Shown here one piece after another: positions 2,153-11,511 of a DNA stretch of 16,691 bases. The notes beneath the pieces are model-generated. The model saw only the letters and a program-made list of their open reading frames with translations, made no database searches and was not told the DNA's origin. Source of the DNA: Streptomyces roseochromogenus subsp. oscitans DS 12.976 (GTDB taxonomy: Bacteria; Actinomycetota; Actinomycetes; Streptomycetales; Streptomycetaceae); the NCBI RefSeq assembly GCF_000497445.1, contig NZ_CM002285.1:8226870-8243560 (forward strand), in the 5' to 3' direction. The translations under genes and the position numbers were made by a program. Each line of letters opens with the position of its first letter. Position 1 is the stretch's first letter.

Positions 2153-3391
2153 TCACACGGCCTGACGCACTCCGTCGAAGGCGATCTCCAGGTGCCGGGG
2201 GCCGCGCAGCACCGCGTTCTGCCGGTACGGTGGCGGATCCGCCACCAGGCGGGGATTCTCCAGCCGCCGGGCCAGCTCGGACAGCGCGATCTGGGTCTCC
2301 AGCCGGGCCAGCGGAGCGCCGAAGCAGCTGTGGATGCCGCTGCCGAAACCGAGGTGCTGGATGTCCTCGCGATCCGGGTCGAAGCGCTCGGGGTCCTGGA
2401 AACGCTCGGGGTCGCGGTTGCCCGCGGCCAGCATCAGCCAGATACGCGAGCCCTTGGGGATGGTCACCCCGCGTACCTCGATGTCGGCGATACACGTGCG
2501 CTGCGGCACGATCTGCACCGGCGGCTCGTAGCGCAGCAGCTCCTCCACGATCTTCACCGACAGGCCAGGATCGTTGCGCAGCCGCTCCAGGAACTCCGGA
2601 TGGCGCAGCAGCGTGAGCATGCCGTTGGTGATGAGGTTGACGGTCGTCTCATGGCCCGCGATGAGGAGCAGCACCGCCGTGCTGAGTACCTCCATCGTCG
2701 TCATGGCGCCGTCCGGACCGTGACTGTTCACCAGGTCGGAGAGCATGTCGTCGCGAGGTTCCCTGGCGCGCTGGTCCACCAACCCGTTCAGGTACATGCC
2801 GAGCTGCAACCGTGCCTCCTGCGCGGTTCGCTGGGATTCGGCGCTCGTACGGGCGTCGGGGTCCAGACCGGCGACGATCGGGTCGACCCAGGCACGGAAG
2901 CGGGGCTCGTCCTCACGCGGTACGCCGAGCAGCCGGCAGATCACGGTCACCGGGAAGGGGTACGCGAACTGGTCGACCAGGTCGATCTGCCGCGCGTCCC
3001 CGAAGCCGTCGATCAGCCCGGTGACGATCTCCCCCAGCTCGCCCCGCATGTTCTCGATCCGGCGCGGCCTGTGCGGCGGCCCGAAGGAGCTGTTGGCGAT
3101 CCTCCGCAGCCGGTCGTGCTCCGGCGGGTCGAGCCGGATGAAGCTCGGAGGCAGCCCCGTCGCCTCCGGCCCGGACAGCTCGTCGTCCCCGGCGGCGGCC
3201 AGATTGGCGGCGTCGGAGCTGATCCGCGGATCGTGCAGCAGCGCCTCGATGTCCCAGTACGAGCTGAGGACGTACGGGCCGCCCTCCTCCTCGTGCAGGA
3301 CCGGATTCTTGCGCAACTCCTCGTACAGCGGGTACGGGTTGGCACGGTTGGCGAAGTCGGTGATCTGCTGGAACAGCGGGGCTTGCGTCAT
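2153..3391 (-). CDS. Cytochrome P450, third gene of a ferredoxin-reductase-P450 operon
   Basis: This is a complete 412-aa bacterial class I P450. The I-helix oxygen-activation motif AGHETT is at residues 245-250, the K-helix ExxR is E284-LL-R287, and the heme loop FGSGIHSCFG has the thiolate ligand C356. It starts at the ATG at 3391 behind GAGG with 7-nt spacing. The reductase ends 42 bp upstream, in a gap holding nearly three copies of the 8-mer TCGGGGCG. With the ferredoxin and reductase this makes a complete three-component monooxygenase: NAD(P)H to FAD reductase, to ferredoxin, to P450. The substrate cannot be told from the sequence. It is on the same strand as the CDPS-P450 gene and could be a second tailoring oxidase, or unrelated. 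The Imm21 gene converges on it, with 19 bp between the stop codons. Confidence 0.96.
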   Translation of the reverse strand: MTQAPLFQQITDFANRANPYPLYEELRKNPVLHEEEGGPYVLSSYWDIEALLHDPRISSDAANLAAAGDDELSGPEATGLPPSFIRLDPPEHDRLRRIANSSFGPPHRPRRIENMRGELGEIVTGLIDGFGDARQIDLVDQFAYPFPVTVICRLLGVPREDEPRFRAWVDPIVAGLDPDARTSAESQRTAQEARLQLGMYLNGLVDQRAREPRDDMLSDLVNSHGPDGAMTTMEVLSTAVLLLIAGHETTVNLITNGMLTLLRHPEFLERLRNDPGLSVKIVEELLRYEPPVQIVPQRTCIADIEVRGVTIPKGSRIWLMLAAGNRDPERFQDPERFDPDREDIQHLGFGSGIHSCFGAPLARLETQIALSELARRLENPRLVADPPPYRQNAVLRGPRHLEIAFDGVRQAV

Positions 3392-3400
3392 GACAGGTCC

Positions 3401-3424
3401 TCGGGGCGTCGGGGCGTCGGGGCC
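3401..3424. repeat. Tandem 8-bp repeat between the reductase and P450 genes
   Basis: TCGGGGCG is repeated twice exactly and a third time with one change (TCGGGGCC). The tract fills about half of the 42-bp gap between the two genes and ends 10 bp before the P450 start codon. Copy number could vary by slippage and change spacing, but nothing shows that it does. Confidence 0.6.
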
Positions 3425-3433
3425 GGGCGGCGA

Positions 3434-4825
3434 TCAGTGCCGCGCCGGGTGGAAGACCAGCTGTTGGTCGGCCGGTGAGTAACCGGTGAGGGTCACGGTC
3501 GGGCCGTGGGTCGGCAGGGACGGGTCGGGGAAGTCCGCTGCTACCGGCTGCCGGCCCTCGGGACGCCGGTCCATCGTCGGGAACTCCACCGGGAACGGCG
3601 CGCCCCGTTCGATCTGCCGCGCGTAGAACTCCAGCCACCGGGCGTTGTCGAAGCTCACGGCGGCGATGACGCGTCCCTGGTAGCCGTACACGCCGACGAA
3701 CCGGCGTTCGGCCAGTGCACCCTGCGTGATCATGAGCTGGTCACCCATGGGCGGCACCCCGACCGACTTGATGTTCACACCGAACATCGACGACCAGAAG
3801 GCGGGCATCCACAGATGCGGGCGCCGGTCGGCGCCGTGGCAGATCATGTTGTGCGCGGCCGTCTCCGCCTGGGCGACGGCGTTGCCCCAGTGCTCCAGCG
3901 AGAGGAACTGATAGCCGAACAGCGCGTGCGGGGAGCGCGCGACATCGCCCGCGACGAACACGTCGTCGGTGACGATGCCCCGGAAGTCGAAGGCACGGCA
4001 GCCCGCGTCACAGGCGATGCCCCGAGGCCCGGCACCCAGCCCCGACCCGGTCAGCCAGTCGGTGTTGCGCACCGAGCCCAGCGAGACCACGACCACGTCC
4101 GCTTCGACGACACTCTCGTCGGACAGATGGACGGCACGCACCCTGCCGACCGAGTCGCCCTCCAGCGAGGTCACGGTGACATGGGTGCGCAGATCCACGC
4201 CGTTCTCGGTCTGCAGATCGGCGGCGACCGCGCCGATCACGCCGCCGAGCGCGCCCACCAGCGGCGCACCCGCACGCTCCGCCACGGTCACGGGGATGCC
4301 CGTCTCCCGGCATGCCGAGGCGACCTCCGAACCGGCGAACCCGGCGCCGATCACGAACACCCGGCGCGGCCCCGCCTTCAACCGCTGGTACAGATCGGCC
4401 GCGTCGTCCCGTGTGCGCAGCAGGCAGACGCCGTCCAGCCGGCCCTCGTCCGCCTTCAGCCAGGGCCGGGCGCGCACCCCGGTCGCGATGAGCAGCCGGT
4501 CGTACTCCACCTCGTCCCCGTCGGCCAGCTTGACCCGTTTGGCCGACAGATCCAGACCGGTCGCCGCGACGCCGAGCCGCCACTTGGCGTCGATCTCCCG
4601 GCGGTGCGGCAGCTCGGTCCGGTGCGGGGACGCCTTGCCCAGCAGGACCGACTTGGACAGCGGCGGCCGGTCGTACGGCTCGTACGGCTCGTCACCGATC
4701 AGGGTCAGCTCACCGGCGAAACCCTCCGCACGCAAGGTCTCGGCGGCCCGCAGTCCCGCCAGCGAGGCGCCGACGATCACGATCCGGCCCTCGCGCCTGA
4801 GCCAGTCGACATAGTCAGCGGGCAT
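3434..4825 (-). CDS. FAD-dependent ferredoxin reductase (P450 redox partner)
   Basis: This is a 463-aa pyridine nucleotide-disulfide-type reductase. The FAD-binding Rossmann motif is VGASLAGLRAAE (residues 18-29), followed by EPYEPYDRPPLSK (46-58), which is typical of ferredoxin reductases that serve P450s and ring dioxygenases. The second Rossmann motif, IGAGFAGSEVAS (159-170), binds NAD(P)H, and VFVAGDVAR (289-297) contacts FAD. I chose the ATG at 4825 because AGGAGG lies 6 nt upstream and the FAD motif then falls at the usual distance from the N-terminus. The gene overlaps the ferredoxin gene by 11 bp, so the two are probably translationally coupled. It passes electrons from NAD(P)H to the ferredoxin. 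It could also serve the CYP121-like P450 domain encoded upstream, which has no redox partner fused to it. Confidence 0.94.
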   Translation of the reverse strand: MPADYVDWLRREGRIVIVGASLAGLRAAETLRAEGFAGELTLIGDEPYEPYDRPPLSKSVLLGKASPHRTELPHRREIDAKWRLGVAATGLDLSAKRVKLADGDEVEYDRLLIATGVRARPWLKADEGRLDGVCLLRTRDDAADLYQRLKAGPRRVFVIGAGFAGSEVASACRETGIPVTVAERAGAPLVGALGGVIGAVAADLQTENGVDLRTHVTVTSLEGDSVGRVRAVHLSDESVVEADVVVVSLGSVRNTDWLTGSGLGAGPRGIACDAGCRAFDFRGIVTDDVFVAGDVARSPHALFGYQFLSLEHWGNAVAQAETAAHNMICHGADRRPHLWMPAFWSSMFGVNIKSVGVPPMGDQLMITQGALAERRFVGVYGYQGRVIAAVSFDNARWLEFYARQIERGAPFPVEFPTMDRRPEGRQPVAADFPDPSLPTHGPTVTLTGYSPADQQLVFHPARH

Positions 4826-5060
4826 CGCGCGCCTCCTGGGCGGAGCCGGTGCTCTGCTCACCCGCGCCGTCCAGGCCGTCCGCCGTGATCGCCTGCACCG
4901 GGCAGGCCGCGACGGCTCGGGCCAGCCGTTCGCGCTGTTCCTCGGGTGCGTGCGGGTTGTAGACCAGTGACTCCTCGCCGTGCATGGCGAAGACGTCGGG
5001 AGCGAGGAACGCGCACTGGGCGTACCCCTGACACTTGTTGAGATCGACGACGAGCCGCAT
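4815..5060 (-). CDS. Small ferredoxin, probably [3Fe-4S], P450 electron donor
   Basis: This is an 81-aa acidic ferredoxin. The cluster ligands are in C10-QGYAQ-C16 and C53-P54, that is C-x5-C ... C-P. The central position of the first motif is Tyr13 rather than a fourth cysteine. Three ligands in this pattern are characteristic of single [3Fe-4S] or site-differentiated ferredoxins that serve actinobacterial P450s. A C-terminal tail of about 20 residues, rich in Gly, Glu and Ser, lies after the core and overlaps the start of the reductase gene. The ATG at 5060 follows a GGAAGGGCGGAG purine run. It is the first gene of the ferredoxin-reductase-P450 operon and begins 185 bp downstream of the membrane-protein gene, so a separate promoter is likely, although I see no clear hexamers. 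Confidence 0.93.
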   Translation of the reverse strand: MRLVVDLNKCQGYAQCAFLAPDVFAMHGEESLVYNPHAPEEQRERLARAVAACPVQAITADGLDGAGEQSTGSAQEARDAR

Positions 5061-5245
5061 CGACGCTCCGCCCTTCCGGTGGCAGGTCCGGCGCGCACCG
5101 GTCTTTCGCACGGCACGCCCGGACGGCGGTCATGTCCCGTTTGCCAGCATGAGCGCGACGGAGCAACATCGCCCGTCGGGAAACCCCCGTTCGGGCCGCA
5201 AGTCGGCCGGTGCACGGGCGCGCGGGCGCTACGGCGATGCGTCCG
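5061..5245. other. Intergenic region upstream of the ferredoxin operon
   Basis: This 185-bp stretch separates the membrane-protein gene from the ferredoxin operon. It should contain a terminator for the first and a promoter for the second. I see only short GC-rich inverted matches and no convincing -10/-35 pair, so nothing specific is called. Confidence 0.4.
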
Positions 5246-6031: not shown

Positions 6032-6056
6032 GTGAGTCCCCGGGCTCCGGACTCAC
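6032..6056 (-). terminator. Hairpin at the methyltransferase stop codon
   Basis: GTGAGTCC (6032-6039) and GGACTCAC (6049-6056) form a perfect 8-bp stem with a 9-nt loop. The right arm covers the stop codon of the methyltransferase gene (6053-6055). With the nested hairpin just beyond it, this probably ends the CDPS-P450/methyltransferase transcript. Confidence 0.6.
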
Positions 6057-6670
6057 CCGGACGGCGGGGTCCTGGCCCACAGGAACAGACTCCTCCCGGA
6101 GGACGCCCCGCCGTCCGTCGCGGATTCAGCGCGGGTTTCCACCCGATCGACCTCCAGCCCGGCCAGCCGGGCGTATCGGCGGACGTCCTCGCGCAGGCAG
6201 CGCAGGGGACGGTACGTCAGGTCGAGGAACCGCACGTCCTGGGTGCCCTGGGACTCCGGCACCGCGACCAGAACGGTGCCGCCCGGCACGGTGCGGGCCG
6301 CGAGCCGTCGCAGACCTTCCACGAAGCGGGGTTCGGGCAGGTTGACGAGGCAGAACAGACACACCACGGCGTCGTACACGCCGAGGTCGGCGTCGTCGCA
6401 GTAGAGGTCGGCCAGGACGAAACGCGCCTGGGGCACCTGGCGTCGCGCATGGGCCAGCATGACCTCGGAGACGTCGACGCCCGTGACGTCCAGCCCCTTG
6501 GCGCACAGCTGCTCCGTGGTGGGACGACCCGTCGCGCACCCCACGTCCAGGACCCGGGAGCCGCGGGCGAGGCGGCGCGACAGCTCCTCGACGGCGTCGA
6601 TCTGGGCCTGCTTCCGGTCGGCGAAGGCGTGCTCGTACTCCATGCCGAGACTGTCGAAGAGGCGCGCCAT
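6053..6670 (-). CDS. Class I SAM-dependent methyltransferase next to the CDPS-P450 gene
   Basis: This is a 205-aa protein with a Rossmann-like methyltransferase core. Motif I is VLDVGCATGRPT (residues 40-51), the acidic residue that binds the SAM ribose is in VTGVDVSEVM (D66), ADLYCDD (87-93) follows, and VPGGTVLVAVPES (128-140) is the post-I/motif III region. The start at 6670 has GGAAGG 7 nt upstream. It begins 20 bp after the CDPS-P450 stop codon, so the two are one operon, and a double hairpin follows its own stop. Methyltransferases next to CDPS genes commonly N-, O- or C-methylate the diketopiperazine or its P450 product, and that is the inferred role. The sequence does not show which atom is methylated. 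The family is sure; the substrate is inferred from position. Confidence 0.9.
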   Translation of the reverse strand: MARLFDSLGMEYEHAFADRKQAQIDAVEELSRRLARGSRVLDVGCATGRPTTEQLCAKGLDVTGVDVSEVMLAHARRQVPQARFVLADLYCDDADLGVYDAVVCLFCLVNLPEPRFVEGLRRLAARTVPGGTVLVAVPESQGTQDVRFLDLTYRPLRCLREDVRRYARLAGLEVDRVETRAESATDGGASSGRSLFLWARTPPSG

Positions 6671-6690: not shown

Positions 6691-8649
6691 TCACCACAGG
6701 ACCGGAAGCCTCTCGGGGACCCGCTTGATGTTGCCCGTGCGCCAGACCAACTGGTCGACGGGCAGCGCGAGACGCAGCCGCGGGAGGCGTGCGAGGAGGA
6801 CGGTGAGGGCTTCCGCGGCATGGACACGGGAGATCGTCGACGCAGGGCAGAAGTGGCTTCCCGCCCCGAACGACAGGTGCGCGTTGGGCGAGCGGTCGAG
6901 GTCGAACCGCTCGGCGTCCGGGAACTGTTCGGGGTCGAAGTTCGCGCCTTCCACGCAGACCAGCACCAGCTCTCCGGCTCGCACCAGGACCTCGCCGACC
7001 TGAACGTCGGCGCGGGCGATCCGGGGCAGTCCGTCGCCGATCGACAGCGTGCACCGCAGCAGCTCCTCCACGGCGCGTGGCATCGCCTCGGGCCGCTCAC
7101 GCAGTCGGTCCATGGCCTCCGGGTGCCGGATCAGTGTCAGTACGGCGTGCAGCAGGAACACATAGGTGCTCATGGCGCCGGCACCGAAGAGCGACGTGAC
7201 CGTGGCGGCGAGCATTTCGTCCGTCAGGTCTCCGCCGTCGCGCTCCGGGTCGTCGCGCAGCTCGCACAGCCGCCGGATCAGGCCCCGCTGGGCGGCACGG
7301 TCGTCGCGCACGTGCCGCAGTACGAAGGCGTAGTCCTTGTCCCAGTTGGCGGTGCAGCCGTCGTACACGACGGGGCTGGTGACGAAGCCGAGGTCCAGGC
7401 CGGACATCAGCCGCAGTCCGTCCTCGTACGGCAGACCGAGTACCTCGCAGACCAGGGCGGCGGAGTACGGTTCGGCGAACCGCTGCCGCAGATCGACCGG
7501 TGGCCCCTCCTCGACCATGGCGTCAACCAGTTCGTGCGCCCGCGCGGCCATCCACTCCGCGGACGCCGGCCCGGACCGGGGCCCGAAGGCGCGCAGCACC
7601 TCCTGGTGGAGCCCGGCACTGTTGACGTTGCCCATGGTGTTGACGACCTCCGGGGGAATCGTCAGGGCGTACTGGCGCGGTACATCGGGAGCCGCCGTTT
7701 CGCGCAGGCTGAAGCGTTCGTCTTCCAGGACCTGCCGGGCCAGCTCGTAGCTGGTGACCAGCCAGGCGTCGTCGCCGGTGAGGGTCCGGATCCGCGCGAC
7801 GGGGCTCTCCGCGCGCAGCCGGGCGCACTCGGCGGGCACGACGTCGCCGCGCCGCGACAGCGGCCACTCGACACCGGCGTAAGGGGGCACGGGGGCGGGG
7901 GCTTCGGTGGAGGTGGATGCCATGGCAATCTGCTTTCCTGAGTCGCGGCACGCAACGATGGCGTAGCCCTGGTTGTCGGCCGGGCGCAGCGCCATCCGGC
8001 GCTCTCCGAACAGCAGTCGGCCCAGCGCGAGGACGGTGTGGTAGCAGTGGACGGACGAGGCGACACCCAGGATGCGGGGGGTGTCGACGAAGAACGGCAA
8101 CTCGGCGTCGACGTACGCGAGCGCCGCCTCCACCTGAGCGGGGGTGGGCAGGTCGTCCGGCTTCAGCCGCTTGGCGAGGAACTGGTACGCCATGGCGTCC
8201 CGGACCGACCGTAACTCCACGTCGGTGCGCAGAGCCGCCCGTGTCCGCGCCCGCACCTCCCGGTAGGAGGGGTGGTCGAGGAACGCGGACAGCGGCCGCG
8301 CCCTTACGCGTTCTGCGGCTGCGCCGATGTCTTCGAGAGCGCCGTCGATGCGCCGCCGCACGCCGCGCAGTTGCTTGGCCACGCTCTTGCGCGCGGCGAC
8401 ACGCTCATAGCCGAGGGCTTCGAGCATCGCCTCCAAGGCGATGTCGGCGTGTACCACGTCCACGGCGGCGAAGCGCTCCACCGCCCACGCCATCGCATTG
8501 GCCAGATTTCTGCGGCTGAAGTAACTGTTGCCCGTGCTCACCCCGAACAGCGCGTGATCCCCACGCTGCAGGATGCGTTCGCTGCTCGCCCCGAACGGGA
8601 GGACCCGCACTCGATGATCTTCCAGGACCTGCGGTTCACTGTGGGCCAT
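6691..8649 (-). CDS. Cyclodipeptide synthase fused to a CYP121-like cytochrome P450
   Basis: This is a 652-aa protein in one uninterrupted frame. Residues 1 to about 235 are an AlbC-like CDPS, which diverts two aminoacyl-tRNAs into a cyclodipeptide. GVSTGNSYFS holds the nucleophile S38, Y179 and E183 lie in AYVDAELPFF, and Y203-H204 lie in SSVHCYH. N41, Y203 and H204 place it in the NYH subfamily. These sit one residue beyond AlbC S37, Y178, E182 and Y202. Residues 243-652 are a full P450: I-helix FGAGAMST (488-495), ExxR E529-R532, heme Cys C601 in FGAGSHFCP, and an end DQLVWRT...PERLPVLW as in CYP121. I preferred the ATG at 8649 (GAGGGG 7 nt upstream) to the GTG at 8655. L146 is a TTA codon. 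An internal ATG at 7923 could also give a free P450. A methyltransferase follows after 20 bp. The product is probably an oxidised diketopiperazine, identity unknown. Confidence 0.93.
   Translation of the reverse strand: MAHSEPQVLEDHRVRVLPFGASSERILQRGDHALFGVSTGNSYFSRRNLANAMAWAVERFAAVDVVHADIALEAMLEALGYERVAARKSVAKQLRGVRRRIDGALEDIGAAAERVRARPLSAFLDHPSYREVRARTRAALRTDVELRSVRDAMAYQFLAKRLKPDDLPTPAQVEAALAYVDAELPFFVDTPRILGVASSVHCYHTVLALGRLLFGERRMALRPADNQGYAIVACRDSGKQIAMASTSTEAPAPVPPYAGVEWPLSRRGDVVPAECARLRAESPVARIRTLTGDDAWLVTSYELARQVLEDERFSLRETAAPDVPRQYALTIPPEVVNTMGNVNSAGLHQEVLRAFGPRSGPASAEWMAARAHELVDAMVEEGPPVDLRQRFAEPYSAALVCEVLGLPYEDGLRLMSGLDLGFVTSPVVYDGCTANWDKDYAFVLRHVRDDRAAQRGLIRRLCELRDDPERDGGDLTDEMLAATVTSLFGAGAMSTYVFLLHAVLTLIRHPEAMDRLRERPEAMPRAVEELLRCTLSIGDGLPRIARADVQVGEVLVRAGELVLVCVEGANFDPEQFPDAERFDLDRSPNAHLSFGAGSHFCPASTISRVHAAEALTVLLARLPRLRLALPVDQLVWRTGNIKRVPERLPVLW
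7933..7939 (-). promoter_or_regulatory. Internal ribosome-binding-like site before the P450 half
   Basis: On the minus strand AGGAAAG lies 9 nt before an in-frame ATG at 7923, exactly where the CDPS domain ends and the P450 begins (MASTSTEAPAPV). This could allow a separate P450 to be made from the same message, or it may be a relic of two formerly separate genes. Confidence 0.4.
8212..8214 (-). promoter_or_regulatory. TTA codon (bldA-type control point) in the CDPS gene
   Basis: Leu146 of the CDPS-P450 protein is encoded by TTA, in the context D-V-E-L-R-S-V. In Streptomyces this codon is very rare and is read by the bldA tRNA, which becomes effective late in development. It is the only in-frame TTA I found among the confidently called genes of the window. 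Confidence 0.85.
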
Positions 8650-9819: not shown

Positions 9820-11511
9820 TCAGAGCTGGGACAGTTCGTCCACAAGGTCGTCCAGGCCCAGCGAGCCCTGGGACAGGGCCGCCATGTGCCAGGCCTTCAG
9901 GTCGAAGTCGTCGCCGTGTCGCTTGCGGGCGTTCTCGCGGCCCAGCAGCCAGGCCCGCTCGCCGAGCTTGTAGCCGATCGCCTGGCCCGGAATCGTCAGG
10001 TACCGGGTGAGCTCGCTCTCCACGAAGTCCGCCGGCCGGCTGCTGTGCGAGCCGAAGAACTCCTGCGCCAGCTCCGGCGTCCACCGTTCACCGGGGTGGA
10101 ACGGCGAGTCGGCGGGAATCTCCAGCTCCAGATGCATGCCGATGTCCACGATCACCCGCGCCGCCCGCATCATCTGCGCGTCCAGATAGCCGAGCCGCTC
10201 CTCGGGGTTCGTGAGGTAGCCCAGCTCGTCCATCAGCCGCTCCGCGTACAGCGCCCAGCCCTCGGCGTTGGCGCTGACCCCGCCGATCGTCGCCTGGTAG
10301 CGGGAGAGGTCCTCGGCCACGTGCGCCCACTGCGCGAGCTGCAGATGATGCCCGGGCACGCCCTCGTGGTACCAGGTCGAGACGAGGTCGTACACCGGGA
10401 ACCGCGTCTGGCCCATCGTCGGCAGCCAGGTGCGGCCCGGGCGGGAGAAATCCTCCGACGGTGCCGTGTAGTAGGGGGCCGCGGCACCGCCGGGCGGCGC
10501 GATGCACGACTCCACCTTCCGCACCCGCTCGGCGAGTTCGAAGTGCGTGCCGTCCAGGTCCTCGATGGCCTTGTCCATCAGGCCCTGCAGCCACTCCCGG
10601 ACCTCTTCCACGCCCTCGATGTGCCGGCCGTGCTCGTCGAGGTGCGCGAGCGCCACCCAGGGGGTCTCGGCGCCGGGCAGGATCTTCTCCGCCTCCAGCT
10701 TCATCTCGCCGAGGATCCGGTGGAACTCCGCCCAGCCGTACGCGTACGCCTCGTCCAGGTCCAGATCGGTGCCGTTGAAGTAGCGGGACCAGCGCGCGTA
10801 CCGCTCGCGGCCCACCGTGTTCGGGGCACCCTCGATCGCCGGCGCGTACACGTCCCTAAGCCAGTCCCGCAGCTCCACCAGCGCGCCGGTCGCAGCGCCG
10901 GCCGCCTCGTCCAGCTCTGCGCGCAGCGCCTCGGGACCCGCGGCGGCGAAGTCCTCGTACCAGCCGCGGCCCTGGCCGTCTGTGTCCGTCCACTCGGTGA
11001 GCTGCTGGATGTACGTCGCCGTCGGGCGCGGTGCCGCGAACAGCTTGCGGTCCAGGCCCAGTTGCAGCGATGCACGGTAGCCCGCGAGCGCGCCCGGCAC
11101 CGCGCGCAGCCGCTCCGCGATCGCCGCCCAGTCCTCGTCCGTCTGCGCCGGCGTGACCGTGAAGATGTCCCGCACCGAGTGGCCCGGCGTGCTCATGTTG
11201 CCGACCGCGCGCAGGTGCTCGTCCGCGTCGTACACGGCGAGTTCGGCGGTCAGCCGCTCCCGCAGCAGCCGCCCGCAGCGCCGCTCCACGTCACTGTCCG
11301 CACCCGGCTGCCGCTCCGCCTCGTCCAGCTTCGCGAGGGTGGCCCGGGCCAGCTCCGCGAGGGCCGCCTGGCCCGTGGGCGAATAGTCGGGCAGCCGGCT
11401 CGAACTCTCCTTCACACCGAGGTAGGTACCGGTGACCGGGTCGAGGGCGATGAGGTCGTCCACGTACGCGTCGGCGACCTGACGGGGCAGCGGGCTCTTC
11501 GTCTCAGGCAT
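9820..11511 (-). CDS. DUF885-family metalloprotein, probable zinc peptidase
   Basis: This is a 563-aa protein of the length usual for bacterial DUF885. The HExxPGHH motif HEGVPGHHLQ (residues 382-391) and EGWALYAERL (417-426) match the zinc-binding and nearby acidic residues of this gluzincin-like family. I see no signal peptide, so it is probably cytoplasmic. Family members have been proposed to be carboxypeptidase-like, but no substrate can be assigned here. I chose the ATG at 11511 because GAGG lies 9 nt upstream; an in-frame ATG at 11520 directly abuts that GAGG and leaves no spacing. The gene converges with the SDR gene across 66 bp and lies 53 bp downstream of the second Lrp-type regulator gene on the same strand, so it may be co-transcribed with it. 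Confidence 0.92.
   Translation of the reverse strand: MPETKSPLPRQVADAYVDDLIALDPVTGTYLGVKESSSRLPDYSPTGQAALAELARATLAKLDEAERQPGADSDVERRCGRLLRERLTAELAVYDADEHLRAVGNMSTPGHSVRDIFTVTPAQTDEDWAAIAERLRAVPGALAGYRASLQLGLDRKLFAAPRPTATYIQQLTEWTDTDGQGRGWYEDFAAAGPEALRAELDEAAGAATGALVELRDWLRDVYAPAIEGAPNTVGRERYARWSRYFNGTDLDLDEAYAYGWAEFHRILGEMKLEAEKILPGAETPWVALAHLDEHGRHIEGVEEVREWLQGLMDKAIEDLDGTHFELAERVRKVESCIAPPGGAAAPYYTAPSEDFSRPGRTWLPTMGQTRFPVYDLVSTWYHEGVPGHHLQLAQWAHVAEDLSRYQATIGGVSANAEGWALYAERLMDELGYLTNPEERLGYLDAQMMRAARVIVDIGMHLELEIPADSPFHPGERWTPELAQEFFGSHSSRPADFVESELTRYLTIPGQAIGYKLGERAWLLGRENARKRHGDDFDLKAWHMAALSQGSLGLDDLVDELSQL

Follow-up and report, generated by a model that had tools for sequence, protein, structure and literature searches.

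A single gene of Streptomyces roseochromogenus subsp. oscitans DS 12.976 encodes a cyclodipeptide synthase (CDPS) joined in frame to a cytochrome P450. It lies within a 16,691-nucleotide stretch of contig NZ_CM002285.1 (positions 8,226,870 to 8,243,560), referred to here as the window. The fusion is real and was correctly described in an earlier, sequence-only reading, but its architecture is already in print and is not new; the protein is very probably the published CDPS 71. In the account that we favor, and hold as a whole to be highly probable, the N-terminal CDPS half would convert aminoacyl-tRNAs mainly to cyclo(Trp-Tyr) (cWY), as PMC5816076 reports for the isolated domain. The C-terminal P450 half most likely couples this cyclodipeptide oxidatively, with a purine base as the predicted partner, and the product of a downstream methyltransferase gene would act after the P450. 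The fused gene would have formed in this lineage when the stop codon of the CDPS and a stretch of the short spacer disappeared. With a P450 start signal surviving inside the frame, the gene probably yields the fusion and, beside it, some free P450.

The gene and its two domains lie on the minus strand, which the sequence-only reading had left unstated:

6691..8649, minus strand: fused CDPS-P450 gene, 652 codons from the ATG, with GTG 8655 as an alternative start

7954..8607, minus strand: CDPS domain (PF16715) of the NYH subfamily, assigned from Pfam and residues S38, N41, Y179, E183, Y203 and H204

6694..7884, minus strand: P450 domain, CYP121/PtmB-like, assigned from heme C601, ExxR at 529-532, and sequence and structure matches

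The frame runs from ATG 8649 to a stop at 6691-6693 and measures 664 codons from stop to stop; on the plus strand the same interval holds no open frame, as its translation contains stops. PF16715 scores 275 bits on the fused frame (cut-off 27) and PF00067, the P450 family, 70.4 bits (cut-off 22.8), in line with the single CDPS and CYP121-like P450 frame that had been proposed. The CDPS half also reaches 247.1 bits with TIGR04539 (cut-off 45). Its score with the cyclodityrosine synthase equivalog NF052540 is 201.4 bits, below the required 300, and the P450 half scores 71.7 bits with NCBIfam TIGR04538 (P450_cycloAA_1), for which 500 are required. Every residue number in the sequence-only reading proved correct, including those of FGAGAMST (residues 488-495). 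The six CDPS residues are invariant in all 28 rows of the CDPS alignment, and C601, E529 and R532 in all 30 rows of the P450 alignment; mixed alignments A2 and A4, which were misaligned, were left out. Solved enzymes match each half across almost its full length, and hence the fused frame is not a chance occurrence. The spacer between the domains comprises about 25 residues (about 235-258), somewhat more than the 10-20 first suggested. Predicted folds had a mean predicted local distance difference test (pLDDT) score of 56.4 from a CDPS-deep alignment and 77.2 from a P450-deep alignment, and neither model informs on the relative placement of the two domains.

The fusion had been put forward as a candidate for an undescribed enzyme architecture, a view that does not survive comparison with the literature. 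In 2010, the CDPSs found were all standalone, and CDPS and P450 genes were seen to form a conserved operon (PMC2922099). CDPS-P450 fusions were then described by Gondry et al. in 2018, and the example tested there is from this very strain. In that paper (PMC5816076), CDPS 71 of S. roseochromogenes subsp. oscitans DS 12.976 consists of a CDPS of ∼240 residues and a P450 of 410 residues in one protein, as in the 652 codons seen here, and its isolated CDPS domain yields cWY (98%) with some cWA and cWS. The genome has two CDPS genes, and only that of the window sits in a long frame (664 versus 259 codons). A related arrangement, with a tailoring enzyme at the CDPS C-terminus, is the CDPS-methyltransferase fusion of Skinnider et al. 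2018 (PMC5767969), in which the partner is a methyltransferase instead of a P450. What our analysis contributes is the history of the junction, the P450 start retained inside the frame and a second fusion of independent origin, all modest additions. With the architecture and the first domain's product already published, the remaining interest lies in the P450 reaction and in whether the fusion matters. Natural fusions of a scaffold enzyme and a tailoring oxidase are ready tests of whether an intermediate of low solubility is passed on better between tethered domains, and can guide the engineering of diketopiperazine pathways.

The second CDPS gene of this genome, at L076 (G000:C1:8892097-8893979), adjoins a P450 gene; these are two genes, and the P450 is 54% identical to that of the window.

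To place the junction, we compared the window with orthologous loci. A scan of genome contigs gave 13 loci, seven of them close (CDPS identity 68-87%). Both genes are present in six of the seven: L063 (S. acidicola), L064 (S. alanosinicus), L065, L066, L067 and L068 (S. atriruber); L032 and L061 represent the same contig as L063, and L033 and L062 the same contig as L068. All six encode two separate proteins. The sequence-only reading had counted such a pattern in close orthologues against the fusion; the pattern is indeed there, but it indicates a lineage-specific fusion rather than an error. At the seventh locus, L069 (S. alfalfae), the CDPS gene (10001-10808) lacks its C-terminal end and there is no P450 within the 20.6 kb covered, an apparent decay of the pair. 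Searches of plasmids yielded no close DNA match, only CDPSs less than 60% identical (22 records).

Three features mark the junction:

7939..7941, minus strand: TCA codon where L064 has the CDPS stop TGA, from the DNA alignment

7933..7939, minus strand: Shine-Dalgarno (SD)-like AGGAAAG of the P450 gene inside the fused frame, aligned to AGAAGAAAG of L064 and matched by eye to L033

7921..7923, minus strand: original start codon (ATG) of the P450 gene, within the fused frame and giving a 410-residue P450

From the position of the CDPS stop to the P450 ATG there are 18 nucleotides in the window versus 47 in L064, a difference of 29. The 18 that are kept resemble the P450 ribosome-binding region of L064 (aligned) and of L033 (by eye, since DNA alignment A3 left its junction unaligned). 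In L063 the corresponding CDPS stop has likewise been lost, yet a TGA in the frame of the P450 stands six bases before its ATG. This comparison implies that the fused state is derived, through loss of the CDPS stop and part of the spacer, and the window's fusion is seen in one lineage only. The window thereby shows a route to fusion, in which a spacer only a few dozen bases long loses its stop codon.

Separate genes in all six orthologous loci would also be expected if the fusion were an artefact of sequencing or assembly, with two genes that are actually separate. Pyrosequencing is prone to homopolymer errors. The DS 12.976 genome, in two scaffolds (chromosome, 9.66 Mbp; plasmid, 119.0 kb), was obtained by that method at 20.39-fold coverage, with 397 chromosome contigs (PMC3886958), and the published CDPS 71 would depend on the same assembly. 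However, no base run longer than three occurs at 7921-7945, and the window is without any N. Three runs of five G (7883-7901) do lie inside the P450 start, but the P450, read from its ATG, is in the same frame as its orthologues. Moreover, had the sequence slipped by one base at the junction, the CDPS would end in an out-of-frame tail of 91 or 137 codons, not at a nearby stop. These data make an artefact very improbable.

We calculated SD pairing energies with an assumed anti-SD sequence. The internal AGGAAAG has an energy of –6.5 kcal/mol; of 1071 other internal ATGs in frame, 56 equal or surpass this strength. For comparison, the P450 starts of the six orthologues range from –5.4 to –10.6 kcal/mol, and the start of the fused gene itself gives –11.7 kcal/mol at ATG 8649 versus –4.8 at GTG 8655. 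The sequence-only reading had supposed that the fusion fixes a 1:1 ratio of the two enzymes. With the P450 ATG and a moderate ribosome-binding site retained within the frame, that ratio is not assured and the claim lacks support.

The same retained signals bear on whether the fusion does anything at all. It may be a neutral accident, in which the CDPS is unchanged, most P450 comes from its own internal start and the tethering has no role. We give this a substantial chance, though one short of even. The P450 ATG and SD-like site persist not only in the window but also at two other loci described below, L114 and L122 (SD energies –7.3 and –9.6 kcal/mol), and fusions are rare. On the other side, the fused frame is uninterrupted and both halves are conserved. 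When the window is paired with four orthologues, ratios of nonsynonymous to synonymous substitution rates (dN/dS) are 0.20-0.30 (CDPS) and 0.15-0.19 (P450), and do not exceed those of the six pairs without the window (0.25-0.42 and 0.17-0.23). Purifying selection thus acts on both halves. One caveat here is that the fusion is undated, and hence this selection is a poor guide to the fused state.

By sequence and by fold, the P450 half is closest to CYP121/PtmB-type P450s. The nearest solved enzymes are PtmB, GymB5 and GymB1, and the window's P450 is ∼59% identical to PtmB and 54% to GymB1. Substrates are present in solved PtmB (cWW and purine bases) and in solved GymB5 (cYY and hypoxanthine). 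The structure match list spans residues 254-652 only, and chain 9o4d, the second-best sequence match, is absent from it. These solved chains are standalone, whereas the window's P450 is fused and belongs to a separate clade: in a quick tree, with Shimodaira-Hasegawa-like approximate likelihood ratio test (SH-aLRT) support alone, the window and its six orthologues form a seven-row clade with support of 100. Duplicates and sequences with <45% identity or fewer than ∼330 aligned residues were left out of this tree, which carries a long-branch warning near the window clade (L074, L009). The gene that follows the fusion is relevant as well:

6053..6670, minus strand: class I S-adenosylmethionine (SAM) methyltransferase gene, starting 20 nucleotides after the stop of the fusion

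L063 and L064 likewise have a methyltransferase gene after the P450; none was seen at this place in L065-L068.

Rv2275 and CYP121, which are two separate genes, offer a precedent for a different outcome. Their cYY product is converted to mycocyclosin (PMC7954767), whereas here the cyclodipeptide is cWY, as published for CDPS 71. By analogy, the P450 may form an intramolecular bond within cWY, with no nucleobase adduct. We regard this as rather unlikely. PtmB, the enzyme solved with purine bases, is nearer by sequence than CYP121 (519 versus 400 bits). In addition, the review PMC7954767 describes Streptomyces CDPS-associated P450s that transfer guanine or hypoxanthine, and dehydro derivatives that are guaninylated and then methylated by GutE to give a cWY-derived product; a methyltransferase gene follows the P450 here too.

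Several points weigh against the account that we favor, that of CDPS 71 as a cWY synthase joined to a base-coupling P450 that is also made in free form. The window protein and CDPS 71, between which no difference was found, were compared by strain, layout and lengths, not letter by letter. The P450 clade has no characterised member among the rows used, and identity to PtmB, 9o4d and GymB1 is 54-62%. According to PMC7954767, CYP121, of the same P450 group, forms an intramolecular bond, and genes for cyclodipeptide oxidases are a further part of the guanine clusters of the cWY type reviewed there. Finally, the internal ribosome site of the P450 is only moderate, and a search of the genome with the anti-SD pattern returned no match.

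How unusual is the arrangement? Separate neighboring genes are the norm, as the sequence-only reading had stated: a CDPS match occurs at 103 loci, of which 90 are non-duplicate, and 79 of these have a P450-like match directly downstream. These loci were chosen as best matches, not at random. CDPS and P450 are in the same frame in 6 of the 79, and just two of those six, the window and L114, have no stop between them. In three loci (L047, L093 and L105) the two genes overlap in different frames; L120 was likewise flagged. Wider scans found a CDPS in 136 of 392, 135 of 391, 155 of 394 and 7 of 396 genomes, in samples that overlap and with locus-level results that are the best matches listed. Among the matches listed in the 392-genome scan, no frame except that of the window has at least 600 codons. 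Among ten loci selected for a long CDPS frame, two continue in frame into a P450 (L114 and L122), seven are long only upstream of the CDPS, and one (L120) looks decayed.

L114, from another Streptomyces (G567:C110:127800-132800; frame ending at L114:3933), holds a CDPS and a P450 in one 670-codon frame and has kept the P450 ATG, as in the window. Its P450 is 85% identical to PtmB and groups with it in the tree. Because the window and L114 fall in separate P450 clades, they represent two independent fusions. At L122 (G187:C321:36500-41500) the CDPS is spread over two frames, the second half being in frame with a GymB1-like P450, and the junction has one base fewer than the unfused L084. Given the missing base and the split CDPS, a draft error is possible, and L122 was not counted as a firm third fusion. 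It is tempting to generalize that CDPS-P450 fusions arise repeatedly from tight gene pairs and keep the P450 start, which would provide tethered plus free P450 and a tunable channel from cWY to a base-coupling P450; we consider this broader idea doubtful.

L120 (G478:C1:2997500-3003000) contains a CDPS in pieces and P450-like sequence in another frame.

Elsewhere in the window, genes for a second P450, a ferredoxin reductase and a ferredoxin, possible redox partners, stand in a row on the minus strand (2153-5111). No such row was found in the orthologous loci, within their available extent. At 566-1592, two genes on opposite strands, one for an Lrp/AsnC-type regulator and the other for a rhodanese-domain protein, have starts that nearly adjoin. 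In addition, one protein of this genome matches solved CloQ without a single difference (324 of 324 residues); CloQ belongs to the clorobiocin cluster of DS 12.976.
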